From Nitrospirota bacterium (lineage in GTDB: Bacteria > Nitrospirota > Thermodesulfovibrionia > Thermodesulfovibrionales > UBA6898): DNA of 34,809 bases. Below, piece by piece: positions 2,237 through 33,718 of the stretch. Under the pieces are notes generated by a model that made no database searches, had not been told where the DNA came from, and was given only the letters and a program-made list of their open reading frames with translations. The first letter of the stretch is position 1. Each line of letters begins with the position of its first letter. The position numbers were made by a program, and so were the translations under genes. The stretch is taken from positions 1 through 34,809 of the forward strand of contig QKDO01000038.1 of the NCBI GenBank assembly GCA_003252075.1, in the 5' to 3' direction.

Positions 2237-2683
2237 GACGTTTCCCTCCTTTTACGATCATTACCAATGCTGTCTATGGCCTTCGTGACGCATCAGCCGA
2301 ATCAGAAGACCGCACTGAGAACTGGCAAAGCAGATTAAAGCCGGTCTTTCACCCCCCCTTCACCCATCGCATAATAAAAAAGCCGAACTATCCGAAATAA
2401 GATTCTTCGGCAGTTCGGCCATCATGATAGTAATATTCCCCTTCTTCCGCCCCTTTTCAGGGAGGGTTTGGCTTTGTCGATATTCGTTCTTGCTTATCTC
2501 CTATCACGGAGCAATATTGTTGTCAAGCTTTAGCTTTAGGGTATTTGCCTGCGGGAAGTACGTTCAGGGAAAAGCTGTTTATTCTTCCGATTATTTTTTA
2601 CAGGTTTGGTTCTGACAAGAGGGCCACGGCCGGCCCGGCAGAGAGAACGCGCTGAAGAGCCTTCGATGGTTTTGCGGCTTTAT
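2237..2683. other. Intergenic stretch between secreted-protein gene and nifA
   Basis: It holds the ribosome binding site and presumably the promoter of the secreted-protein gene at its left end, and the minus-strand terminator at 2370-2419. About 260 bp between that terminator and the nifA stop show no coding character on either strand. I cannot identify an RNA gene there. Confidence 0.5.
2370..2419 (-). terminator. Strong intrinsic terminator, downstream of nifA
   Basis: Read on the minus strand, GCCGAACT pairs with AGTTCGGC (plus-strand 2412-2419 and 2382-2389). An inner CCGAA/TTCGG pairing continues the stem, and the 3' side runs into six T residues (plus-strand A run at 2376-2381). This is a textbook Rho-independent terminator. 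It lies about 260 bp past the nifA stop, so the nifA transcript would carry a long 3' untranslated tail, and it insulates the next minus-strand gene. Confidence 0.85.
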
Positions 2684-29720: not shown

Positions 29721-31025
29721 ATGCATATAGGAGTTATCGGCACCGGCTACGTCGGCCTCGTTACGGGTGCATGTTTTGCGGAGTTCGGTGTGGCAGTCAC
29801 CTGCATCGACAAGGACGAAAAGAAGATAAAAGCCCTGAAGAAGGGAGATATCCCTTTTTACGAACCCGGTCTTGAGGACCTGGTAAAAAAGAATGTCAAG
29901 AACGGCAGGCTCAGATTTTCGACGCGGATACAGGATGCCGTGGACTCGAGCCTGATCATCTTTATCGCCGTCGGGACGCCGCCGCGCGGCGACGGCTCAG
30001 CGGACATGCGGTATGTTGAAGCTGTTGCCGAAGAGATTGCGCAGAACATCAGGGGGTACAAGGTGATCGTGACCAAGAGCACGGTCCCGGTGGGGACTGG
30101 TGCCCGGCTGCGGAAGATTATTTCCCGGAAGCTCAAGGAGCAGATGGACTTTGATATCGTCTCCAATCCGGAATTCCTCAGAGAAGGCTCAGCTATTGAG
30201 GATTTCATGCGGCCGAACCGGGTCATTATCGGGGCGTCGAGTCAGCAGGCCATTGCGATCATGAAGGACCTTTACGGGCCCCTTTACCTCATCGAGACGC
30301 CCTTCGTGATCACGAACATAGAGACCGCGGAGCTGATCAAGTATGCAGCGAACTCTTTCCTCGCCGTGAAGATATCCTTTATCAATGAAATGGCGAACCT
30401 TTGTGACCGCGTGGGTGCCGACGTGCATATGGTCGCAAAAGGCATGGGGCTTGACCACCGTATCGGCTCCAAGTTCCTCCATCCGGGCCCCGGGTACGGT
30501 GGATCATGCTTTCCCAAGGACACGCGGGCGCTTCTGACGATAGCGGAGAAGCATAACGCCGATGTCGGCGTTGTCAGGGCGGCAGTAGCGGCGAATGAAC
30601 AGCAGAAACATATTGCCGTTGAGAAGATACGGAGTGGTATGGGCGATCTGAAGGCGAAGACCTTCGCGATCCTCGGGCTGTCGTTCAAGCCCAACACGAA
30701 CGATATGCGTGAGGCCCCTTCGATTTATATCATCGAGCATCTGCTCAGGGAGAAGGCGAAGGTGAAGGCCTTTGATCCCATTGCCATGGAGGATGCAAAG
30801 GCTATTTTCGGAAATACCATCGGCTATGCGAAGACGCCCTATGACTGCATGAAGGGTGCTGACGCAGTCGTGATCGTGACGGAATGGAACGAATTCCGGA
30901 ACCTTGAGCTCATGAAGATCAAGGCCCTTCTGAAAACACCCTATTTCTTTGACCTTAGGAATATCTATGAGCCGGGCAAGATGAAAAAGCTCGGGTTCAA
31001 GTATTTTTGCGTCGGCAGGAACTGA
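29721..31025 (+). CDS. ugd: UDP-glucose 6-dehydrogenase
   Basis: The 434-residue enzyme has the NAD-binding GTGYVG (7-12) and the substrate segment NPEFLREGSAIEDF. The catalytic cysteine C263 lies in GYGGSCFPKD, and LGLSFKPNTNDMREAPS is in the C-terminal domain. It oxidises UDP-glucose to UDP-glucuronate with two NAD+, feeding uronic-acid-containing core, O-antigen or capsule. The start follows GGAGGGTAT. It is the last gene of the glycan cluster. Confidence 0.96.
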   Translation: MHIGVIGTGYVGLVTGACFAEFGVAVTCIDKDEKKIKALKKGDIPFYEPGLEDLVKKNVKNGRLRFSTRIQDAVDSSLIIFIAVGTPPRGDGSADMRYVEAVAEEIAQNIRGYKVIVTKSTVPVGTGARLRKIISRKLKEQMDFDIVSNPEFLREGSAIEDFMRPNRVIIGASSQQAIAIMKDLYGPLYLIETPFVITNIETAELIKYAANSFLAVKISFINEMANLCDRVGADVHMVAKGMGLDHRIGSKFLHPGPGYGGSCFPKDTRALLTIAEKHNADVGVVRAAVAANEQQKHIAVEKIRSGMGDLKAKTFAILGLSFKPNTNDMREAPSIYIIEHLLREKAKVKAFDPIAMEDAKAIFGNTIGYAKTPYDCMKGADAVVIVTEWNEFRNLELMKIKALLKTPYFFDLRNIYEPGKMKKLGFKYFCVGRN

Positions 31026-31057: not shown

Positions 31058-31096
31058 CTAATCACTGATCACGCTTTTCTTGTTACTGTCGAAGCG

Positions 31097-31170
31097 GGCG
31101 ATTAGCTCAGCGGGAGAGCACTCCCTTCACACGGGAGGGGTCACTGGTTCAATCCCAGTATCGCCCACCA
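31097..31170 (+). tRNA. tRNA-Val (anticodon CAC)
   Basis: A complete cloverleaf is visible. The acceptor stem GGGCGAT pairs with ATCGCCC. The D stem is GCTC/GAGC and the anticodon stem CTCCC/GGGAG. The loop TTCACAC gives anticodon CAC, for GUG codons. The T arm is ACTGG-TTCAATC-CCAGT. The discriminator A and an encoded CCA complete the 74-nt gene. An integrase gene follows closely, so its 3' half is the likely attachment site. Confidence 0.96.
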
Positions 31171-31181
31171 TAACAGGCTGG

Positions 31182-31211
31182 AAGAAACTCCTTGAAATAC
31201 AAGGATTTCTT
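31182..31211 (+). terminator. Terminator-like hairpin after tRNA-Val
   Basis: AAGAAA-c-TCCTTG (31182-31194) pairs with CAAGGA-TTTCTT (31200-31211) around a five-base loop, giving a 12-bp stem with one bulged C. T-rich sequence follows (CTTTTCTTTT). It could end tRNA transcription. Confidence 0.6.
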
Positions 31212-31253
31212 TCGGCTTTTCTTTTGTCCTTACCCATTCTTACCATCTCGTTA

Positions 31254-32315
31254 TTATCCCAACTGTGCTAATTTTGTGCTAATTATTTTTGTTCCGTTCA
31301 AAGTCTTGTCCAAAACATTGACTGCATTGTTTAAATGTCCCGGCGATAAGTGACTATAGCGCAGAGTCATGTTTAAGGACTTATGGCCCAGGAGCCTTGA
31401 TACCGTTGTCAGATCAATCCCGGACATGACAAGGTGACTTGCAAAGGTATGTCTGAGATCGTGGAAATGAAAATCCCTAATCCCGGCCCTCCTGAGCGCT
31501 GTATTGAATGAACGCTTAATGTCCTTAAAGGGCTTTCCTGTCGCCTGATCGTAAAAGACATAGGGAATATCAAGTCTTCTGGCTAATCCCTGCAATACGC
31601 CTCTCAAAGTTTCATCAATTGGGATTTCTCTGCGTTCCCCGTTCTTAGTCCTGTCTAAGAGAACATAGCCGTGCTTGAGATCAATATTCATCTCCCATTG
31701 CAGGCTTAAGATCTCGCCTCTTCTCATGCCTGTGTGTATTGCCGTAATGACGATAGGCCGCAGGTGAGCATCACACTTGCTGATAAGCGTCTGTACCTCT
31801 TCAATAGTCAGATAGCGTAATCTTTTGCCGTTATCCTTGAGAGGCTTTATTTTACGGATACGCTTCAGTATGTCCTCTGTCACCATCTCCCATTCCACGG
31901 CTTTATTGAACATGTGTTTCAGCAGATTGGTTACCTTATTGTTGCTTGCAGGCTTATAGCCCTTGTTTATGAGGTCAGTCTGTAACTGATCAACAATGGC
32001 AGTGTTGAAACGCTTTAGTTGCATGTCGCCGTAGACTGACAGCAATTGCCCTATCGTATAGATTTTGATCTTTGCTGAGTTCTGCCGTCCTGTCACCCAT
32101 GAGATATACTTCTCTGATAGTTCCCGGAAACTATAGTTCTGAATCCGCTTTATTTCGGGTTCTTCCCCTTTGTCAATTGTCTGTCTTCTGTCAGCAAGCA
32201 TGGATTCAGCTTTCTTGAATTTGTTGCTGAACGTGGATTCTCTTTTTTGCTTTCCGTCAAGGCACGTATAACGAATCCAATATACAGAACCGCGCTTATA
32301 AATACCACGAGCCAT
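31254..32315 (-). CDS. Tyrosine recombinase / phage-type integrase
   Basis: The 353-residue protein has an N-terminal arm-type region (GIYKRGSVYWIRYTC) and a SAM-like core-binding domain (about 60-155). The catalytic domain carries R198 (HTGMRRGE), H285 and R288 (HDLRH), H311 (LLGHKS) and the nucleophile Y320 (RYSHLS). All key residues are intact, so it should be active. It catalyses site-specific integration and excision, presumably at the adjacent tRNA-Val. It is transcribed toward the tRNA, three bases after the XRE gene, so the two are likely cotranscribed. Confidence 0.95.
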   Translation of the reverse strand: MARGIYKRGSVYWIRYTCLDGKQKRESTFSNKFKKAESMLADRRQTIDKGEEPEIKRIQNYSFRELSEKYISWVTGRQNSAKIKIYTIGQLLSVYGDMQLKRFNTAIVDQLQTDLINKGYKPASNNKVTNLLKHMFNKAVEWEMVTEDILKRIRKIKPLKDNGKRLRYLTIEEVQTLISKCDAHLRPIVITAIHTGMRRGEILSLQWEMNIDLKHGYVLLDRTKNGERREIPIDETLRGVLQGLARRLDIPYVFYDQATGKPFKDIKRSFNTALRRAGIRDFHFHDLRHTFASHLVMSGIDLTTVSRLLGHKSLNMTLRYSHLSPGHLNNAVNVLDKTLNGTKIISTKLAQLG

Positions 32316-32318
32316 ACC

Positions 32319-32525
32319 TCACACTCCTTTCAGTTTTCTTCTTTTTTTGTGTTTCTCTTCAACACAGACCAGCAAAAGCTTTAAAGTCTGACTCGATTCT
32401 CTCATCCCCCTTTCAAGATAATAGACATGCTGTTCCGTCACGCCAAGAAATTCTGAGAAAGCCCTTTGAGAGAGGCCCATGTCATTTCTCAATTCTCTAA
32501 TTTCTTCTGGCGTCCACTTCCTCAT
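32319..32525 (-). CDS. Small XRE-family helix-turn-helix regulator
   Basis: From the ATG at 32523-32525 the protein has 68 residues. It has a helix-turn-helix of the lambda-repressor/XRE type (EEIRELRNDMGLSQRAFSEFLGV, with recognition helix TEQHVYYLERG) and a basic tail (KHKKRRKLKG). The frame is open back to 32675, but the upstream 50 residues look non-coding and the chosen start begins with the typical RKWTPEEIRELR. It probably represses or tunes the integrase gene three bases downstream. It resembles the small regulators paired with integrases in mobile elements. Confidence 0.78.
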   Translation of the reverse strand: MRKWTPEEIRELRNDMGLSQRAFSEFLGVTEQHVYYLERGMRESSQTLKLLLVCVEEKHKKRRKLKGV

Positions 32526-32953
32526 GCTTAAATAATACCTAACTAAGTTATGCTTGTCAAGAATTGTGTGTGGTGGACGAAAATCCGCTATGAGGTCAAT
32601 GAATCGATACTGAATATTCTTCCTCCTACCAGTTGCAATCCCCGATAACTGTAGACTACATGTCGTCATCCGCATACCTATGATTTCATGCAGGCCCGTC
32701 TAAGTACTTACTGTAAATCGCAATAGTTTCGGATACTATCAACTATCGTCCACTCTCGGTATTCGGGAGAGGATGCCACAGAGCAACTCGTGAAAGTTCC
32801 CATTAATTATCAATAGACCTGATTCGGTAATATCTGAAGACAGCAAACCCGATGTGACACCATACATGCGCTTTGATCAACGCAGATCATCATTGGGTTA
32901 TTTAATTTTGACAACCAGGACATATTGTGTTAATAGTTAAGTAAGCAGCGAAA
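32526..32953. other. AT-rich intergenic region right of the integrase module
   Basis: I see no gene on either strand. The left part must hold the XRE-integrase promoter, and the right end holds the promoter at 32908-32936. A small dyad, CTCTCGGTATTCGGGAGAG, lies near 32752-32770. Confidence 0.45.
32908..32936 (+). promoter_or_regulatory. Sigma-70 promoter before the structured leader
   Basis: A perfect TTGACA (32908-32913) is followed 17 bases later by TAATAG (32931-32936), in an AT-rich setting. Predicted transcription starts near 32943, ten bases before the first stem of the leader RNA. Confidence 0.55.
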
Positions 32954-33040
32954 TTCCTAACAAAGCCAACCCACTCGTGAGGTTGGGGCGAAAGGCGGCG
33001 GGTCTTTTGCATATTAAGATGGCTGAGTGGTCGAAGGAAG
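32954..33040 (+). ncRNA. Structured leader, candidate c-di-GMP-I (GEMM)-like riboswitch
   Basis: TTCCT (32954-32958) pairs with AGGAA (33035-33039) to close an element containing CCAACC...GGTTGG, GGGGCGAAAGGC, CGGGTCT and a TCTT/AAGA stem (33003-33006 / 33016-33019), then GATGGCTG. The order and several strings (AAAG, CGGGTCT, GATGGC, CGAAGG) match GEMM RNAs, which bind cyclic di-GMP and often control exported or pilus proteins. The highly conserved GCAAAGCC core is altered here, so it may be a variant, a decayed copy or a different RNA. The string GGCTGAGTGGTCGAAGG also matches the D-arm of bacterial tRNA-Ser, an alternative explanation for part of it. It lies about 150 bp before an exported-protein gene. 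Confidence 0.45.
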
Positions 33041-33193
33041 TCATGTCGGCATGCGCGGCTTATTTACGGATATGATCTTGCTTACACAGAGGGCGGGAAG
33101 GAGTGGAAGAAGATTAAGGATAGAGACCCTGAACCCTAAGATCATACAGTATTTCTCTAAGGGGAGCACCGAACGCATTAAGGAGGGAACAAC

Positions 33194-33718
33194 ATGAAAA
33201 AGTCTATGCTTGTCATTCTGACCATGATCCTGTCAGTTAGCACGTTTCTCTTTGCCGGGTCGATATCGAAGGCTCACGCCGACGGATCGAAGGTCCTCGA
33301 ATTCAATACCATGATCGGAGTGCCAAGACCCTTTACCGGTGTAGATAACGCGATCCGCGGCGTACCGGGCGGCGGTTTGCCCTGGGTCATCGAGTTTGGC
33401 AAAGGGAAGCTCAGCCCGGATGGCGATGTAAATGTACTGGTGAGAGGATTAGTGTTCGATCCCAGTGATCCGGAGGTGATCGCTCGCGGCCTCGCTGGCA
33501 TCAATACCGTACCGAACTTCAAGGTCGTGGTGAGCTGCCTGAGCAAGAATACTGCTGGCGCGGCAATCATTGTAAACGTTTCGACCGGTCTCTTCCCGGC
33601 TGATATAGGAGGGAATGCGCATATCAAGGATTCCGTTGCCTTGCCCTTCCCGTGCATTGCGCCAATTCTTTTCGTGACAAGCCCGGGCGGGGCCTGGTTC
33701 GCTGCAACAGGATTCTAA
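33194..33718 (+). CDS. Small exported protein of unknown function
   Basis: The 174-residue product has a clear signal peptide (KKSMLVILTMILSVSTFLFAG, cleavage probably after AHA at about 29). The mature part is Gly/Val/Pro-rich and beta-like, with two cysteines (SCL, PC) that could pair. I recognise no domain. AAGGAGG precedes the ATG. The gene is alone, behind a promoter and structured leader, and is followed by a perfect 12-bp hairpin. Expression may be controlled by the leader. Confidence 0.82.
   Translation: MKKSMLVILTMILSVSTFLFAGSISKAHADGSKVLEFNTMIGVPRPFTGVDNAIRGVPGGGLPWVIEFGKGKLSPDGDVNVLVRGLVFDPSDPEVIARGLAGINTVPNFKVVVSCLSKNTAGAAIIVNVSTGLFPADIGGNAHIKDSVALPFPCIAPILFVTSPGGAWFAATGF

Follow-up and report, generated by a model that had tools for sequence, protein, structure and literature searches.

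A gene for an exported protein in a Nitrospirota bacterium is preceded by a leader whose motifs recall c-di-GMP-I (GEMM-I) riboswitches but whose core is changed. Does this leader represent a variant class with altered ligand specificity, or something else? Comparison of the window (the whole stretch of DNA analysed, 34,809 nucleotides) with related genomes suggests that the leader is most probably a decaying (pseudo-)riboswitch, the vestige of a common bacterial RNA sensor and not a new class.

Homology to c-di-GMP-I riboswitches

The motifs named in the initial annotation are all present in the leader, in the order of GEMM. The following are seen as motifs in the sequence, along with the promoter-like site:

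32908-32913 (+): TTGACA, the -35 element of the promoter-like site
32908-32937 (+): promoter-like site (TTGACA; 18-nt spacer; weak -10, AATAGT; 10/12 matches)
32954-32958 with 33035-33039 (+): TTCCT/AGGAA closing stem
32966-32971 and 32981-32986 (+): CCAACC and GGTTGG
32988-32996 (+): core, GCGAAAGGC
about 32999-33005 (+): CGGGTCT
about 33018-33023 (+): GATGGC

In the promoter proposed earlier, TTGACA is good, the -10 is poor, and the whole is only a weak match (10/12, spacer 18), of a quality expected by chance (3 sites found versus 1.6 in shuffles). The TTGACAACCAGGACAT of this site is kept in the orthologous leader of a relative in the same genus (G007); the -10 is less so.

At Rfam gathering thresholds, a tRNA is the sole match in the window. 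In a relaxed scan (cmscan, 401 bases), the best Rfam family for positions 32956-33036 (+) is RF03167 (c-di-GMP-I-GGC), with 31.6 bits and E=1e-5 against a gathering score of 59. RF01051, the model suggested for checking the leader, gives a relaxed-threshold match of 29.6 bits, below its cut-off of 35. (Matches to L13-Bacteroidia and SNORD15 in the same scan are at chance level and were rejected.)

A more specific covariance model, R1, was built from 29 sibling aptamers of the C21-G46 subtype (see below) from the same bacterial family, with the window copy and its G007 orthologue left out. Covariation supports R1 well: 97.2% of cells are paired, 10 pairs are changed on both sides, and no shuffle scores as high. 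It matches the window copy at 32955-33035 (+) with 52.0 bits (E=1.7e-15), versus 85-94 bits for four intact C21-G46 siblings in the same search. A further sibling, in G007:C72, shares 77% DNA identity with the window promoter and aptamer over 130 bases. Because of the R1 score, homology of the leader at 32955-33035 (+) to c-di-GMP-I riboswitches can be regarded as secure, and similarity to siblings at the DNA level agrees. Covariance models, and the numerous siblings found both in this genome and across the family, support the proposal of a GEMM-I-derived leader upstream of the exported-protein gene.

Subtypes and pocket types in the family

All 147 RF01051 matches at E<=0.01 from 27 genomes of the same bacterial family were aligned as a background set; Vc2 numbering was mapped through the RF03167 consensus and literature descriptions of G14-C93, G20, A47, and C92. 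In the window's own genome, nine RF01051 copies score above the cut-off; below it, not counting the leader, are two more (E<0.01). The naming of the GGC and UAU variants of GEMM follows general usage and the RF03167 consensus.

Two subtypes share the family almost equally: the 21-46 pair is C-G in 71 of the 147 copies and G-C in 70. The neighbouring 22-45 pair is C-G, U-A, or U-G. The C21-G46 kind reads AAAGCCAAACC...GGCGGAAAGCGGCGGGTCTT...AAGATGGCCGAGCTGCCGAAGG, and this exact pattern occurs in at least 117 stretches in a contig scan of GTDB genomes; among the matches listed are Geobacteraceae, Desulfobacterota(-type) genomes, Methylomonas, Campylobacterota/Sulfurovum, Nitrosospira, a Vibrio, Nitrospirae, and others. 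With so many groups represented, and with intact copies scoring over the Rfam cut-off, the swap was rejected as a novelty: the subtype appears widespread in bacteria, and exchange of the 21-46 pair is apparently ordinary. C21-G46 is evidently also the parent type of the window copy.

The pocket positions 20/47/92 are GAC in 101 of the family copies, GAU in 21, and AAC in 19. The GAU copies (for example G015:C37:5751-5827, G019:C10:2577-2653, and L104) include high-scoring ones; 16 of the 21 fall in the canonical (G21-C46) group, where exported proteins are often encoded downstream. The A20/A47/C92 combination is the GEMM-Ib (cGAMP) signature, found for instance at L005:73-149 (-), and several of these copies sit before genes for exported CxxCH (cytochrome-like) or PilZ-like proteins. 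The leader shares its fold family with the GEMM-Ib cGAMP riboswitches of Geobacter (PMC6456294), and an A20-type copy lies elsewhere in the window genome (L005). The leader itself has G20, not A20, and so falls outside that subclass.

Lesions in the aptamer

In c-di-GMP-I aptamers, the pocket is lined by G21, C46, and A47-A49 (PMC7288161). The A-minor interaction between A49 and C22-G45 is highly conserved, and G14-C93 forms a stack with the ligand (PMC3764141). Ligand specificity is defined by two bases, of which C92 is one (PMC9049102, PMC7288161). Alignment places the corresponding elements of the window copy as follows:

32955-33035 (+): aptamer of c-di-GMP-I type, C21-G46 subtype, probably decayed (RF03167 and RF01051 below cut-off; R1, 52.0 bits; lesions)
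32965-32967 (+): G20, C21, and C22 (Vc2 numbering), pocket strand
32971-32986 (+): P2 hairpin, CCACTC-GUGA-GGTTGG, with GNRA loop GUGA and a C.U mismatch
32990-32994 (+): G45, A46 (mismatched with C21), A47, A48, and G49 (conserved A changed)
33031 (+): U92, a ligand-contacting position (C in most copies; U also in the G007 orthologue)

In the 43 columns where intact siblings show 90% conservation or more, the window copy is changed at 8; of the 21 consensus pairs it keeps 16 (sibling median, 19). Five pairs, in P1, P2, P3, and the pocket, are broken: C21/A46; C.U in P2; G.G at the P3 base; A.C at the P1 apex; and G.A in P3, the last of which is also in the C21-G46 consensus. Further changes are A49 to G and C92 to U; G20, A47, the GNRA loop, and most of P3 are kept. 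The C21/A46 combination is absent from all other copies among the 147.

The window copy shares with RF01051 the order and position of helices, G20, A47, C44, the GNRA loop, the P3 sequence CGGGTCTT...AAGATGGC, a leader position before an exported-protein gene, and a remnant of the overlapping terminator; it differs in its score, in C/A at 21-46, in G49 and U92, in mismatches in P1, P2, and P3, and in the degraded terminator. RF03167 is its best-scoring Rfam family, as it is for intact siblings in the family, but the consensus there is G47/C92 and the window has A47/U92, so that on sequence as on score it lies outside the family. Set against the C21-G46 subtype, it retains C21, C22, GGCG.., AAGATGGC, and the GUGA loop, and departs through G46 to A, A49 to G, C92 to U, CTGCC to TGGTC, and terminator damage.

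The CCAACC/GGTTGG stem of the initial annotation is not the homologous one: by alignment, P2 is CCACTC(GUGA)GGUUGG with its C.U mismatch. In the minimum-energy fold of the leader, the 6-bp CCAACC/GGUUGG pairing does form, and it would tie up C21 and C22 of the core. Relative to this minimum the native fold costs 22.6 kcal/mol, the second largest gap among 72 siblings (median 8.9). As evidence for decay the gap is only supportive: siblings too have a gap, 8.9 kcal/mol at the median, and thermodynamic folding is an unreliable guide to RNAs of this class.

A damaged expression platform

Downstream of the aptamer, intact copies carry an intrinsic terminator, for example CCGAGCTGCCGAAGGA..CCTTTGGTATGCTCGGTTTTTTTT, and the 3' side of P3/P1 doubles as its 5' arm. 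Because terminator and P3/P1 overlap, these copies are probably ON switches. At this site the window reads GAGTGGTCGAAGGAAGTCATGTCGGCATGCGCGGCTTATTTACGG, recognisable and damaged:

33018-33065 (+): remnant of the overlapping intrinsic terminator, by homology to intact copies (5' arm inside P3/P1; 3' arm GTCGGCATGCGCGGC; interrupted U-tract TTATTT)

The remnant is homologous to CCGAGCUGCCGAAGG...CCUUUGGUAUGCUCGG-U(n) of intact copies. Its energy is -12.6 kcal/mol, with -10.7 in G007 and a median of -25.6 for 71 siblings. The U-tract is interrupted in the window, and G007 has no real U-tract. The lineage's expression platform, an overlapping terminator with U-tract, is therefore not intact in the window copy.

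Loss of constraint between orthologues

Among 60 relatives, gene and leader together were found in G007 only. The coding sequences share 93.5% identity; of 34 changes, 25 fall at third positions, which differ by 14%, and the exported protein is evidently under purifying selection. For a 1.3-kb gene nearby (29721-31025), identity between the same genomes is 88%.

Intact riboswitches provide controls. In three intact pairs from these two genomes (C141/C54, C81/C15, and C74/C106), the aptamers are 86-94% identical and the downstream DNA 74-82%. The window pair is reversed: the aptamers are about 80-81% identical, versus 90.5% for downstream DNA. By columns, the window pair differs at 11 of 43 conserved and 11 of 37 other positions (Fisher P=0.80), whereas two intact C21-G46 pairs differ at 0/43 versus 12/37 (P=3e-5) and 0/43 versus 8/37 (P=0.001). 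Conserved columns of the window pair against those of the intact controls give 11/43 versus 0/86 (P=2e-6). These P values are indicative, as pairing columns are not independent. With only two orthologues known, the comparison covers a single pair, which tempers the case for decay.

Both orthologues have A25C, U92, a weakened P3 pair (C to U), and a P2 mismatch. Otherwise the lesions of the G007 copy mostly differ from those of the window; its core is GCGGAAAAA, and GCGAAAGGC is private to the window. The shared changes suggest that decay began in a common ancestor, each copy then acquiring lesions of its own.

Downstream of the aptamer, 37 bases (33071-33107) are identical in the orthologue, amid about 15% divergence, and have no stable fold. 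Together with the conserved TTGACA, they hint that something in the leader may still matter. An inverted repeat in 33060-33165, TATGATCTT/AAGATCATA, pairs in both orthologues, but was rejected as a new structure because the region folds no better than shuffles. By a by-eye reading of the alignment, the small ORF in this interval loses its frame in the orthologue.

A model of decay, and its alternatives

These observations comprise homology, lesions, loss of constraint, and terminator weakening. They fit a model in which the ancestor had a normal C21-G46 c-di-GMP-I aptamer overlapped by an intrinsic terminator and probably worked as an ON switch: ligand binding would have held P1/P3 and prevented the terminator. 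In the window genome and one congener, lesions would then have gathered without constraint in both aptamer and terminator. Since these elements lose conserved parts while the protein stays under purifying selection, the regulatory RNA presumably is no longer under selection. Ligand binding most likely has been lost and expression become constitutive; the likeliest present state would be read-through that starts at the upstream promoter, needs no ligand, and leaves the exported-protein gene transcribed largely free of control. Other decaying aptamer copies in the genus count towards this reading.

The window itself contains another C21-G46 aptamer that has decayed, at 2406-2482 (-) (R1, 38.5 bits), in the leader of an exported-protein ORF (1394-2236, -). 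The orthologous leaders in G005 and G007 have degraded aptamers too (26.2 and 15.3 bits), and all three keep a terminator hairpin with U-tract and a TTGACA promoter. This riboswitch seems to have turned into a fixed attenuator or to have gained another trigger. Another decaying pair, L008 (G000:C79) and L157 (G005:C93), differs at 13 of 43 conserved columns, with downstream DNA 94% identical.

Could the leader be a weakened c-di-GMP-I switch that still functions, the bound RNA blocking a weak terminator to give shallow regulation of the exported-protein gene? Retention of G20, A47, and the GNRA loop would allow this, as would the remaining terminator stem of -12.6 kcal/mol; U92 is no obstacle in itself, being present in 21 of 147 family copies, high-scoring ones included. 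Against it are the C21/A46 mismatch adjoining the pocket, A49G, the P1 apex mismatch, the absence of constraint between orthologues, and the state of the U-tract, interrupted in one genome and absent in the other. A weakened switch is accordingly unlikely.

The proposal of altered specificity can be given a concrete form, in which G20 and U92 would pair with one G and one A of 3',3'-cGAMP, the reverse of GEMM-Ib (A20/C92). Positions 20 and 92 are known to set specificity: G20A binds cGAMP and G20A/C92U binds c-di-AMP (PMC7288161), and G20 is a selectivity factor (PMC9262584). U92, moreover, is common to both orthologues, so that a shift in specificity may, with low probability, have preceded decay. 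Yet the same pocket occurs in 21 family copies and is not special to this leader, GCGAAAGGC is replaced by GCGGAAAAA in the orthologue, and conserved columns diverge freely. An altered-specificity aptamer here is thus very improbable. Even less credence is given to the extended version, a functional switch on the swapped 21-46 background whose mixed-dinucleotide pocket (3',3'-cGAMP; U92 pairing with A, G20 reading G) would be common to the window copy, its orthologue, and the other G20/A47/U92 copies of the family.

Nor is there support for a class defined by the core itself, which the initial annotation had raised as a possibility. The changed core amounts to the widespread 21-46 swap plus private lesions that are absent from the only orthologue, and a distinct class based on GCGAAAGGC was rejected because no other of the 147 copies has C21/A46. 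The two signs of a riboswitch named there have parted company: a covariance model matches at relaxed thresholds, but the homologous leader does not preserve the structure. Finally, chance likeness of an unrelated leader to GEMM, to which Rfam scores below gathering cut-offs might point, is virtually eliminated by E=1.7e-15 with a model that excludes the window copy and by the DNA homology to siblings, as in G007:C72.

The exported-protein gene and its surroundings

If the leader is indeed a relic, what has it left behind?

33194-33718 (+): ORF for an exported 174-aa protein with an N-terminal signal peptide (..AHA/DG), of no named family

The protein has no Pfam match and no NCBIfam match above cut-off; its predicted structure (pLDDT 37) was set aside. 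The G007 orthologue is 95% identical, and distant homologues occur in three more genomes from the phylum sample (G212, G169, and G240). No c-di-GMP riboswitch lies near any of these three, so a link between riboswitch and protein family was rejected: the gene family is not tied to c-di-GMP control.

Upstream are a tRNA gene (31096-31167, +), immediately after it a tyrosine-recombinase-like ORF (31254-32315, -), and, beside the leader, a small HTH-like ORF (32319-32675, -). This neighbourhood (31096-32675), with the gene's presence in one congener only at 93.5% identity, suggests a mobile segment; a search for plasmid matches gave none.

Seventeen GGDEF-domain matches are found in the window genome. 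Because so many are encoded, c-di-GMP synthesis probably has not been lost, and loss would be local.

Implications

A riboswitch match that falls below threshold and has an odd core can easily pass for a new specificity class. In this case, comparing orthologues alongside intact sibling controls tells decay from specialisation. For this leader the consequence is modest: the exported protein probably has been freed from c-di-GMP control. More broadly, c-di-GMP riboswitches abound in this genus and are being lost one piece at a time, a setting useful for learning how regulons lose members.
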